Shown in pieces: positions 19,812 through 33,044 of a DNA stretch of 33,044 nt (positions are counted from its first letter, which is position 1; every line of letters starts with the position of its first letter). Below the pieces are notes generated by a model. The model was given only the letters and a program-made list of their open reading frames with translations, did no database searches and was not told where the DNA came from. Location of the stretch: assembly GCA_027886975.1 (NCBI GenBank), contig JAPCJK010000013.1:1-33044 (forward strand), read 5' to 3'. Made by a program: the position numbers and the translations under genes. The stretch comes from Nitrososphaerota archaeon (lineage in GTDB: Archaea > Thermoproteota > Nitrososphaeria > Nitrososphaerales > Gagatemarchaeaceae).

Positions 19812-20411
19812 TTGCCAGAGAGCGAACTCGACTCCCTTGGATACAATGACTGGCGGCAGGTAGGGGGGTATTTTGACGGAGATGGTTGTGTTATCGTCAA
19901 GATTCGGCAATTTGTTCTCATCCTTTACCTTCAATGGACCGACCGCTGCAGAGAACATTTGGAGCAGATTGACAGATTATTACATTCGATTCAAGGGATT
20001 TCAACCAGAATCTATCGCGACGCTGTTCATGATGCATATCACCTCATGGTTACTAGACAAGATTCAGTACTCCGGATAGCCAAGGAAATGTTGCCGTTCA
20101 CATTCAAGAAGAGGGTAGAACTTCAAGTCGTCGTCGACTATTACTGTGACAAAATAACGGGGAACGAAGGCACAGCCTTGCTGAATGAACAGATTGAAAG
20201 AGGCTTCAGATCAGCGAACAAGATTTCGGCTAGTCTCCCATTAACTCACAACAAGGCCGTCGCCAGGGCTAGGCGACGCTCGAATTTGAGCGACTTCCAA
20301 GTAGAGGAAATATGTAGAAAGTACGGAAATGGATGTCCAGTTTCTGAACTCGCATCTGCCTATGGAAAGTCCGCAGCTTCCATACGGAAAATAGTAACTA
20401 ATCCAACTTAG
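19812..20411 (+). CDS. Free-standing LAGLIDADG-type homing endonuclease with C-terminal HTH
   Basis: A 199-residue protein. Residues 17-25 (VGGYFDGDG) are a clear LAGLIDADG motif with the acidic catalytic residue, followed by the beta strand CVIVKI. Residues about 40-110 fit the rest of one LAGLIDADG domain. A single motif implies a homodimer. Residues about 155-198 (LSDFQVEEICRKYGNGCPVSE..AYGKSAASIRKI) form a helix-turn-helix like those used for DNA contact. It starts at TTG 19812, 29 nt after TATA-like TTAAGT (19783). Base composition is visibly more AT-rich than flanking genes, suggesting transfer. It is not inside a recognisable host gene, intron or intein. Confidence 0.72.
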   Translation: MPESELDSLGYNDWRQVGGYFDGDGCVIVKIRQFVLILYLQWTDRCREHLEQIDRLLHSIQGISTRIYRDAVHDAYHLMVTRQDSVLRIAKEMLPFTFKKRVELQVVVDYYCDKITGNEGTALLNEQIERGFRSANKISASLPLTHNKAVARARRRSNLSDFQVEEICRKYGNGCPVSELASAYGKSAASIRKIVTNPT

Positions 20412-29570: not shown

Positions 29571-32500
29571 CTACCTGTCGACGCACATAAGCAAGGCTTC
29601 GGCTTCCTCCCTGGTTGAGATTACCTGCACTTGCAGGTCCACCGCCTTCCGCCTGATCCTGTTGAAGACCTCCGTGTCTGTGTTGGAGTTTGCGTTGAAA
29701 GAAAGAATGAACGAGACCTCGCCATGAGAGATCATTTTCAAGGCCCCATCAAACATCGTGTCCAGGGAACTTTGGTCAAGAACTTGGATTTTGATTCCCT
29801 TCTTCTCGAACCCATCGATCAGGCCAGTTGCAGAGCTCTTGTCCTGCCAGGGCTCAAGTAGAAGGATGCCTAGGTCTCCTTGCTTTGGGATCGTGTGGCC
29901 ACTGGCCATGAAGGCCTGGGAGAGGGCTTCGGCGAATGTGTCACCGAAGCATGCAACTTCGCCCGTCGAACGCATTTCGACACCGAGCCTTGGGTCGGCT
30001 CCGTCCATTTGAAGGAAGGAAAACTGCGGCGCCTTGACCGCGAAGCGCATGGGTTCCTCGACGTCGTTGGTTCTCTTTAGTTTCCCCCCTCGCATCACCG
30101 GTGCCACGACATCGATCAGGTTTACCCCCGTGGCCTTGCAGACGAAGGGGAGGGACCTTGATGCTCTGAGGTTGCACTCGATTACGAATACGGAGGCGCC
30201 CTTCACCAAGAACTGAATGTTGAGGGGGCCTTTGGCTTTGAGTTCACGCGCGATGCTCTTTGTGTAGGTCCTGATCTTCGACTTCGCCGCTTTTGTGACC
30301 GACACAGTAGGGATGGACATGATGGCGTCACCCGAATGGATTCCGGCATCCTGGACGTGCTCGATTATGGCGCCAATCACCGTGTCCTTGCCGTCTGACA
30401 CTGCGTCGACTTCGACCTCGCGGGCGCCCTCCATGAACTCGCTGACCACCACAGGGTAGTCTGGGTTCACCCTGGCCGCTTTCGTGATGTAAGTCTCCAG
30501 TTCCGAAGGATCCCAGATCACCCTCATGGCGGACCCGCTGAGGACATGTGACGGTCTCACTATGACGGGGTAGCCTACCCTCGCGCAGAAGGTTGCAGCT
30601 TCCGCTGAAGAGTGGAACGAGCCCCATACTGGTTGTGGAATTCCCAGCCTGTCGAGGAGGGCGCTGAACTTCGTCCTGTTTTCGGCCATCTCCACGGAGT
30701 TGGAAGATGTCCCCAGGACGACGACGCCTCGCTTCTCTAGGCTCTCGGCGAGGTCGTTCGGTGTCTGGCCTCCCACGCAAAGGACCATCCCTTCAGGCCT
30801 CTCTTTGTCATAGATCGCCAGAAGTCTCTCTACTGTAAGCTCCTCGAAATACAGCCTGTCACTCATGTCGAAGTCGGTGGACACCGTTTCGGGATTGCAA
30901 TTGACCACAATCACTTCGTCAAATCCGTTTTCCCTGAGCGCCCAGGCCATGTTCATTGTCCCCCAGTCAAACTCGACGGAGCTGCCGATTCTGTAGGGGC
31001 CGGCGCCGAGGACCATTACTTTTCGCTTCTTTGTTGCCGGTGCCTCGTCAACCGATGCGTTGAATGTCTGGTAGAGGTAGTTCGTCTTCGAAGGCCACTC
31101 GGCGGCCAAGGTGTCGATCACCTTGGTGACAGGGGTCACTCCAAGATGAATGCGGGACTCCCTGACCCTGTCCTCCCCCACGCCGAGAAGGGCTCCCAGC
31201 TGCTTGTCAGAAAAACCGAGTTTCTTCGCCCTGGATATCAAGCTGCGGGTCGGAATCGACCCCGGGGTCCCGGATTCCAGACGTCCGTGGAAGTCCACCA
31301 CGTTCTTCAGTTTTCGAATGAACCACATGTCGACTTCGCTTCTCGCAGCTACCTCGTTGGGGTCGATCCCCGCTCTAAGGGCCTCTGCCAGGTCGAACAC
31401 AATTGTGTCGGTCGGGTGGTCCAGCCTCCTTAGGGACTCCGGCCGGTCTGGTGGGGTTGTTCCTGTTCTGATCACCCCGTCGAACTGCGGATTGGCCATC
31501 CGCGCGGCCTTCTGAATGGCTTCCTCGAAGCCCCTACCCACGGCCATCACCTCCCCAATGGACTTCATGGAAGTGCCTATGGTCCGAACCGCACCGTCGA
31601 ACTTGACCGTGTCCCAGCGCGGCATCTTGACGACCAGGTAGTCCAACGATGGCTCGAAGAGGGCAGTTGTTATCCCGGAGACCTTGTTTTTCAGCTCAGT
31701 CAGCTTGTATCCCAGAGCGAGCTTCGTCGCGATGTAGGCCAGGGGATAGCCCGTCGCTTTGGACGCCAGTGCGGAGGACCTGGACAGCCTGGCGTTGATC
31801 TCGATGGCCGCGTACCTTTCAGACCCTGGATGCAATGCGAACTGTATGTTGCACTCTCCTATGATTCCACAGGTCTTGGCTGCGACGAGGGAAGCTGTCC
31901 GGAGCATGTGGTATTCGGAGTTTGTCAGGGTCTGGGAAGGGGCGACCACAATGTTGTCACCCGTGTGGACCCTCATTCCCAACATGTTCTCCATGTTGCA
32001 GATGATCACGCTGTTGCCTTCACGGTCCCGCATGATTTCGTACTCGATCTGCTTCCAGCCACCCAGATACTCCTCGACCAGGACTTGGTGGGCGATGGAG
32101 CTGCTTAGCCCGCGCTCGATGATCTGTTCGAGTTCCTCGATGTTCCTGGCGACCCCTCCTCCCTTCCCCCCTAGTGTGTAGGCGACCCTGATTATGACCG
32201 GGAATCCTAGCAGATTTGCAGCGCGCCGTCCCTCCTCGAACGAATATACTGCGACGCTCCTGGGGACTGGGATTCCTGCACTCACCATAGTCTTCTTGAA
32301 CAGGTCCCTGTCCTCCGTAAGTTGGATTCCGCGGATTGGGGTGCCCAGGACACGCAACCAGTATTTCTCAAGGACTCCTTTTTCCGCGAGTTCGATGCCG
32401 CAATTTAGGGCCGTCTGACCCCCGAACCCCAGCAGAATCCCGTCCGGCCGCTCCTCCTTGATAACGTTGGTCACGGAAGCGAGGTTGATCGGGACGAAGT

Positions 32501-32697
32501 GGATGCGTTCTGAAAACTGCGGGCTGGTCTGAATGGTGGCGATATTCGGGTTGACGAGGACCGAGTCCACCCCCTCCTCCTTCAGGGCCTTAAGGCACTG
32601 GCTGCCGGAGTAGTCGAACTTGCGGCTGGTTCTACCAGCTTTCGCCTGCTTCTCCGACTTTAATCGCGCCGCTGCCTATGACGAGGACTTTCTTCAC
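29571..32697 (-). CDS. carB: Carbamoyl-phosphate synthase large subunit, reading frame split by a 22-nt insert
   Basis: CarB makes carbamoyl phosphate from bicarbonate, ammonia (from CarA) and 2 ATP. Translation starts at GTG 32697 (VKKVLVIGSGAIKVGEAGE), overlapping the carA stop by 4 nt. After 19 codons the frame meets a TAG inside a 22-nt insert (32640-32619). From 32618 the protein resumes as FDYSGSQ and continues unbroken for 1015 residues to 29571. Joined, the protein is 1034 aa, normal for archaea. Both ATP-grasp halves are present (NMENMLGMRVHTGDN; ECNLRASRSLPFV), as is the MGS-type C-terminus. Without removal of the insert, only an internal start such as GTG 32570 could be used, losing the conserved first strand and loop. 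Confidence 0.9.
32619..32640 (-). other. Putative 22-nt bulge-helix-bulge mini-intron in carB
   Basis: The insert lies between GGC-GAA and TTC-GAC, i.e. inside the invariant GEAGEFDYSG. Its inner hairpin pairs 32639-32634 with 32630-32625 (6 bp, 3-nt loop). Exon bases 32645-32643 pair with 32624-32622 (GCG/CGC, extended by a G-A mismatch at 32646/32621). This leaves two 3-nt bulges on opposite strands: 32642-32640 (AA^A) and 32620-32618 (AG^U). Cutting each bulge after its second base removes exactly 22 nt and restores the frame. The outer helix is weak, so this is a relaxed (HBh'-like) motif. Confidence 0.5.
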
Positions 32698-33044
32698 GCC
32701 CTCAAGCTTCGAAACTCCTCACCTCTTTGGCGCTCTCCCGTGGTAGCGTCTGCGAACTTGTCGAAGACAAACATTGTATCGTAGGGCCCGGGGGTGGCCT
32801 CGGGATGAAATTGCACCGCCATGCAGGGCTTGCTCTTGTGGAAGACCCCTTCAATCGTTCTGTCGTCAGCGTTGATGAACCAAGGCTTCAGTTCAGTCCT
32901 AGCGAGTGATTTCTCGTAGATGGCGTAGCCGTGGTTCTGGCTGGTGACATAACCCAGCCCGTTCGTCAGGTCTATGCAAGGCTTGTTCTGCCCCCGGTGG
33001 CCGTACTTCAGCTTGAACGTCTTTGCACCCTGGGACATACCTAC
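32694..33044 (-). CDS. carA: Carbamoyl-phosphate synthase small subunit (partial, C-terminal part)
   Basis: The last 116 codons of CarA, continuing beyond the window edge. This is the class I glutamine amidotransferase domain. KYGHRGQNKPC and SQNHGYAI are typical CarA blocks, and VQFHPEATPGP holds the catalytic His-Glu pair; the nucleophile Cys lies outside the window. It supplies ammonia from glutamine to CarB. Its TGA (32694-32696) overlaps the carB GTG, so the two subunits are translationally coupled. Confidence 0.95.
   Translation of the reverse strand, partial: VGMSQGAKTFKLKYGHRGQNKPCIDLTNGLGYVTSQNHGYAIYEKSLARTELKPWFINADDRTIEGVFHKSKPCMAVQFHPEATPGPYDTMFVFDKFADATTGERQRGEEFRSLRA

Follow-up and report, generated by a model that had tools for sequence, protein, structure and literature searches.

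A candidate 22-nt bulge-helix-bulge intron in the carB gene of a Nitrososphaerota archaeon and its relatives

The carB gene (for carbamoyl phosphate synthase) in the window (the whole 33,044-nt stretch of DNA that was analysed) is interrupted by a 22-nt insert, which is very probably an archaeal pre-mRNA intron of the bulge-helix-bulge (BHB) type. This reading had been put forward in a preliminary description of the locus and is supported, at the level of sequence, by BHB inserts with the same boundary in relatives, by compensating changes in the stem, and by genes for two endonuclease subunits and for RtcB in the genome.

The interrupted carB gene and its predicted fold

The features of the locus are listed in Table 1. 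From a GTG start at 32697 on the minus strand, carB runs through 19 intact codons, meets a TAG within the insert at 32640-32619 and resumes in the exon 2 frame at 32618, exactly as first described; the claim that excision of the 22 nt regenerates GEAGEFDYSG was likewise reproduced. The source genome is a MAG of 2.05 Mb in 151 contigs, 94.8% complete, in which a single carB was found. A second intact copy, which the preliminary description had named as a point against splicing, did not appear in this 95%-complete genome; the sole further CarB match is weak and partial (23% identity) and lies in a different ORF. Directly upstream of the insert the carA stop and carB start overlap as GTGA (32694-32697), which suggests coupled translation of carA and carB. 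Elsewhere in the window (19812-20411, plus strand), a stand-alone ORF encodes 199 aa with a homing endonuclease-like LAGLIDADG_3 domain.

The gene could in principle be read differently, with CarB starting downstream of the insert, and exon 1 and the insert forming an untranslated regulatory hairpin; indeed, a GTG at 32570 opens a 999-codon ORF in the frame after the insert. However, exon 1 encodes the beginning of the preATP-grasp domain: the Pfam CPSase_L_D1 match starts at profile position 21 with exon 2 alone but at position 3 when exon 1 is joined, and the joined N-terminus aligns with a mitochondrial carbamoyl phosphate synthase of known structure without a gap at the junction. In addition, exon 1 varies at synonymous positions while its amino acids are conserved, and in intronless relatives the reading frame continues through this region without a break. 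We therefore consider a downstream start very unlikely.

The fold that supports the intron reading is as the preliminary description gave it: a central helix GGCG/CGCA of three pairs plus a G-A, a 6-bp inner stem and two 3-nt bulges, with the canonical cuts falling on the two junctions. Cutting inside the bulges would restore the frame of the conserved CarB protein, as is expected of an archaeal BHB pre-mRNA intron of the cbf5 type. None of 300,000 shuffles of the 22-nt insert reached at least three central and at least six inner pairs at the window's register. Of 200 dinucleotide shuffles of the local RNA (32600-32665), 199 fold less well than the native sequence (z -3.3), whose centroid structure includes the BHB and an outer exon helix. 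Two observations count against this fold, i.e. the minimum-energy structure of the same region pairs the central part differently, and the outermost central pair is a G-A mismatch in the window and in 13 of the 50 distinct inserts considered below. In the window, five of the six pairs of the second outer helix are formed.

Table 1. Features of the carB locus in the window; RNA elements are predicted and are given at their DNA positions.
Feature	Position	Strand	Remarks
carA 3' part, GATase domain	32694..33044	-	carA stop overlaps carB start
carB exon 1, GTG start to Glu codon of GEAGE	32641..32697	-	19 codons; amino acids conserved, codons upstream of the paired region variable
Predicted BHB intron, 22 nt, in-frame TAG at 32634-32632	32619..32640	-	Boundary shared by 50 distinct inserts in the loci examined
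carB exon 2, FDYSG to stop	29571..32618	-	1015 codons without a stop; Pfam CPSase_L_D1/D2/D3
Second outer helix, 5' strand, consensus GGGGCA, here GGCGCG (less certain)	32665..32670	-	6/6 pairs in 36/60 intron-bearing vs 0/30 intronless rows
Outer helix, 5' strand GTCGGAG, within exon 1 coding sequence	32652..32658	-	At least 6/7 pairs in 58/60 intron-bearing vs 2/30 intronless rows
Central helix, 5' strand GGCG, in exon 1	32643..32646	-	Codon -2 GGC/GGT in 60/60 intron-bearing vs 14/30 intronless rows
5' bulge AAA, predicted cut between 32641 and 32640	32640..32642	-	AAA 37, AGA 12, AGT 1 (50 inserts)
Inner stem, 5' strand GCTGGT	32634..32639	-	5/6 pairs with changes on both sides
Inner stem, 3' strand ACCAGC	32625..32630	-	Covariation with the 5' strand
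Central helix, 3' strand CGCA, in intron	32621..32624	-	C-G replaced by U-A in L029 (both sides changed)
3' bulge AGT, predicted cut between 32619 and 32618	32618..32620	-	AAT 32, AGT 13, ATT 5 (50 inserts)
Outer helix, 3' strand CTCCGGC, within exon 2 coding sequence	32604..32610	-	Pairing and covariation counts; RNAalifold
Second outer helix, 3' strand, consensus TGCCTC, here TGCCTT (less certain)	32592..32597	-	Pairing and covariation counts

Inserts in relatives and the constraint on structure and codons

We gathered carB loci by searching 61 genomes at the protein level and by scanning species genomes. A covariance model of 11 interrupted carB loci matched 341 of 400 genomes of the order, a figure that includes intronless genes, which match via their exons at weaker E-values. 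Insert extraction from 155 records (154 loci and the window) gave 60 distinct intron-bearing rows and 30 intronless rows; 29 of 135 loci, with a carB 5' end that was unreadable or divergent, lie outside these counts. The intron-bearing rows hold 50 distinct inserts of 20-40 nt at a common carB codon boundary (family codes f1, f3, f5, f8, f10, f11, f12 and f20). Interruptions were seen in further members of the window's genus, in the family's other genera and beyond the family, and some relatives were uninterrupted. The inserts of close relatives, whose comparison had been suggested at the outset, differ in sequence and length and share the BHB, i.e. they are not unrelated indels. With the register fixed by the protein-defined junctions and not searched for, all 50 form a BHB of 3-4 central pairs (G-U counted), 3-7 inner pairs and a 3-nt bulge on each side. 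The exon strand of the central helix is GGCG in all of their loci but one (GGTG), and each insert's own pairing score was matched by at most 0.21% of its 20,000 shuffles. Three genomes (G156, G265 and G367) gave two matches each to the carB intron model, which may reflect mixed bins or two carB copies. At two loci of G018 (L017 and L040, JAKAPN010000110.1) the CarB match splits into two frames near residue 904-906, a possible sequencing error given the coverage of 1.76.

Covariation was analysed in 54 of the 60 intron-bearing rows, leaving out six with inserts of 27-40 nt. The structure named in Table 1 paired 92.3% of cells, as against 86.7% in shuffles and 25-45% in slid registers; the shuffle controls ignore shared ancestry, whereas the slid-register controls allow for it. 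Cells changed on both sides numbered 89, compared with a shuffle mean of 25.6 and with none of 500 shuffles as high. Eight pairs showed a change on both sides, a weaker measure that was reached by 17 of 500 shuffles. In an earlier count on 11 sequences, the number of pairs changed on both sides was reached by 34/500 shuffles, and the count of further pair types did not exceed that in shuffles (423/500). The compensating changes fall mainly in the inner stem, where pairs 5 and 6 fail in 17/54 and 9/54 rows; the central helix has one, and the outer helices are mostly conserved and not covarying. When the structure was not supplied, RNAalifold recovered the inner stem, all but one of the four central pairs and all but one of the seven pairs in the first outer helix. 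It also paired part of the second outer helix, in a register that was shifted, and on the 30 intronless rows it predicted no pairs. These counts indicate that the predicted BHB structure is kept by compensating base changes.

Both outer helices (AUCGGAG/CUCCGGU and GGGGCA/UGCCUC) lie entirely in coding sequence, and the first fails in two loci, L028 and L098 (3/7 and 4/7 pairs). Most codons at paired positions are near-frozen in genes with the intron and free in genes without it. Codon -5 is GGA in 57/60 intron-bearing vs 9/30 intronless rows, codon +4 is TCC or TCT in 58/60 vs 12/30, and within the window's genus GGA occurs at -5 in 5/5 intron-bearing vs 0/11 intronless rows. Codons -9 and +8, which belong to the second outer helix, showed no contrast between the two kinds of gene. 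Farther upstream in exon 1, codons are at least as variable in intron-bearing rows, and the exon 1 amino acids are conserved despite this codon variation. Because most rows had been recruited by a model trained on intron-bearing genes, which biases the set towards similar exons, the contrast was retested on 18 rows whose genomes had first been identified by protein search; it persisted, with GGA in 17/18 of these vs 9/30 of the same controls (p 1e-5).

An in-frame stop, in the entering frame, is present in 42 of the 50 distinct inserts: in all 28 whose length is a multiple of three and in 14 of the 22 of other lengths (Fisher p 0.0006, ignoring shared ancestry). It lies at codon 2 in L153, at codon 6 in L029 and at the last codon in L142 and L149, and elsewhere mostly in the loop. 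With shared ancestry uncorrected, the stops in the 3n inserts suggest selection against read-through of unspliced message. Hairpin inserts with such stops would also suit programmed translational bypassing, in which the ribosome hops over the insert and no RNA is removed. Bypassing of the T4 gene 60 type requires matching take-off and landing codons. Here the take-off codon would be GAA or GAG, but none of the 50 inserts ends in either, and bypassing is disfavoured because this matching landing codon is missing throughout. Furthermore, a central helix between exon and intron and frozen outer helices in the exons fit a substrate of the splicing endonuclease and would be unexpected for hopping, which leaves bypassing a highly improbable account of the insert.

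Still less credible is an inactivating insertion or an assembly error. The window does come from a MAG of 151 contigs, but like inserts occur at the same position in many independent assemblies, exon 2 is intact and the structure of the insert is maintained by compensating changes. Because several single-contig genomes (e.g. G005, G043, G045, G087, G109 and G189) carry the insert, it is not to be taken for an assembly error or a broken gene, and we give this explanation a negligible probability. A self-splicing group I or II intron was rejected, as the insert has only 22 nt and no Rfam family reached its gathering score in the window.

Distribution and history

In a sample of the phylum, 90 of 300 genomes matched the covariance model at E 1e-6, and the 210 without a match at this threshold are uninformative. 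Fifty of the matching genomes belong to the order, of which 30 had matches of insert length and 20 of the intronless 56-nt length; all 40 matches outside the order were of the intronless length. A point against the intron reading is that CarB can do without the insert, 20 of the 50 order members having the intronless length. Intronless carB genes have no leftover residues at the junction.

The presence and absence of the putative intron require at least six changes on an exon-2 tree of 85 rows (LG+G4 without mixture, up to 460 residues), which omits five rows that were too short or contained X. This number is approximate because the tree is a quick one with some long branches. In the window's genus the 11 intronless rows group as a single clade inside intron-bearing rows, so that one loss fits there, and there are more intronless rows in other families. 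Judged from these sequences, the predicted intron is old and has been lost several times. A genome whose code places it in a different order of the class also has a carB intron, of 23 nt (L135, G420:C32). A class-wide origin was considered on this account and rejected: this carB groups inside the window's family, which makes transfer or a mis-binned contig likelier than an older origin.

We also searched for further copies of the intron sequence, using a BHB-only model of 34 positions built from 37 of 43 inserts of up to 26 nt. Each of 22 intron-carrying genomes, with at most 150 candidates scored per genome and some of the 22 introns also in the model, gave one strong match (E 1e-5 or better), which was always carB; the next best match had E 0.17. 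Because there was one strong match per genome, these 22 genomes give no sign of a multi-copy element of carB-intron sequence. No match to carB, joined or interrupted, came from pattern scans of viral contigs, an outcome that says nothing on splicing, and a plasmid search also gave no match.

Predicted processing, known introns and implications

The preliminary description had pointed to the EndA subunit type as a relevant feature, and the source genome encodes two endonuclease subunits, one catalytic-like and one structural-like, as two tRNA_int_endo genes (L083 and L084). L083 aligns over its length to the solved tRNA-splicing endonuclease chains 3p1z and 3ajv, which we take to be from Aeropyrum pernix, and keeps the catalytic Tyr, His and Lys. 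The chain 3ajv_B has Ala at the catalytic His position and looks like a catalytic mutant; L084 has no His at this position. The predicted arrangement of L083 and L084 is alpha/beta. Endonucleases of this type are reported to accept both canonical and relaxed motifs, Methanopyrus kandleri being a constrained exception (PMC6379350). A gene for the RNA ligase RtcB is also present.

We infer from these data that the transcript is cut and ligated, and that unspliced message gives no working CarB. In the mechanism that we propose, the exon 1 codons, the insert and the exon 2 codons of the carB transcript would fold into a single long imperfect hairpin displaying two 3-nt bulges around a 4-bp helix. 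Cleavage just 3' of base 2 in each bulge would fall to the tRNA splicing endonuclease, whose genes point to an alpha/beta heteromer; once RtcB had ligated the exons, ribosomes could translate CarB without interruption.

The closest known case is the cbf5 intron, which like that of carB is a short BHB intron that contains no ORF and interrupts a housekeeping gene at a critical point; it too is traced to an ancestor, with loss in some lineages (PMC2738675). The carB intron lies in another gene and another lineage, and outer helices drawn from frozen codons of both exons were measured in this analysis for carB. The preliminary description had called 22 nt unusually short. This was wrong, because the cbf5 pre-mRNA introns are given as 16-44 bp in the same paper (PMC2738675), so that 22 nt is neither unusually short nor a record. 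The cbf5 intron of Crenarchaeota was linked by its authors to the hetero-oligomeric endonuclease (Yokobori 2009, PMC2738675; Watanabe 2002 as cited there), and a table in that paper enters a value of 0 for the cbf5 intron in Nitrosopumilus maritimus and Cenarchaeum symbiosum (PMC2738675).

As of 2020, PMC7714728 names cbf5 as the only BHB intron reported in an archaeal mRNA besides its authors' own case. The haloarchaeal mRNA described there is, as we propose for carB, processed by the splicing endonuclease at BHB sites, but these sit in the 5' UTR, whereas the carB intron is inside the reading frame (PMC7714728). The BHB introns of archaeal tRNAs share with carB the two 3-nt bulges and the 4-bp helix (the motif as given in PMC6379350) and presumably the same enzymes; in carB, mRNA exon helices take the place of the tRNA body. 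An archaeal virus has putative introns of 12 bp (Peng et al., as cited in PMC2738675), which like the carB insert are very short and in protein genes, but their splicing is putative and they might stay in the message (PMC2738675). No report of a carB intron was found among the papers listed by searches of the open-access literature, judged by titles and the starts of abstracts, subscription journals being mostly outside it. On the sequence data presented here, carB would be a rare and apparently overlooked archaeal gene that needs mRNA splicing.

The addition of a central metabolic gene, interrupted in several families of an archaeal order, would make archaeal mRNA splicing broader than assumed. 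In intron-bearing genomes carB starts may be mis-annotated and predicted proteomes may lack the CarB N-terminus, and archaeal gene finders need to look for introns of the carB type. The intron also offers a natural test, within one genus, of how introns are lost and how RNA constrains codons. A more speculative possibility, which we hold to be rather doubtful, is that the intron is an ancient selected RNA device and not a neutral relic, with the exons sacrificing synonymous freedom for a scaffold that replaces the tRNA body and the insert kept so as to block read-through of unspliced message. If that were true, the synthesis of pyrimidines and arginine in ammonia-oxidising archaea and their relatives would be gated by splicing.
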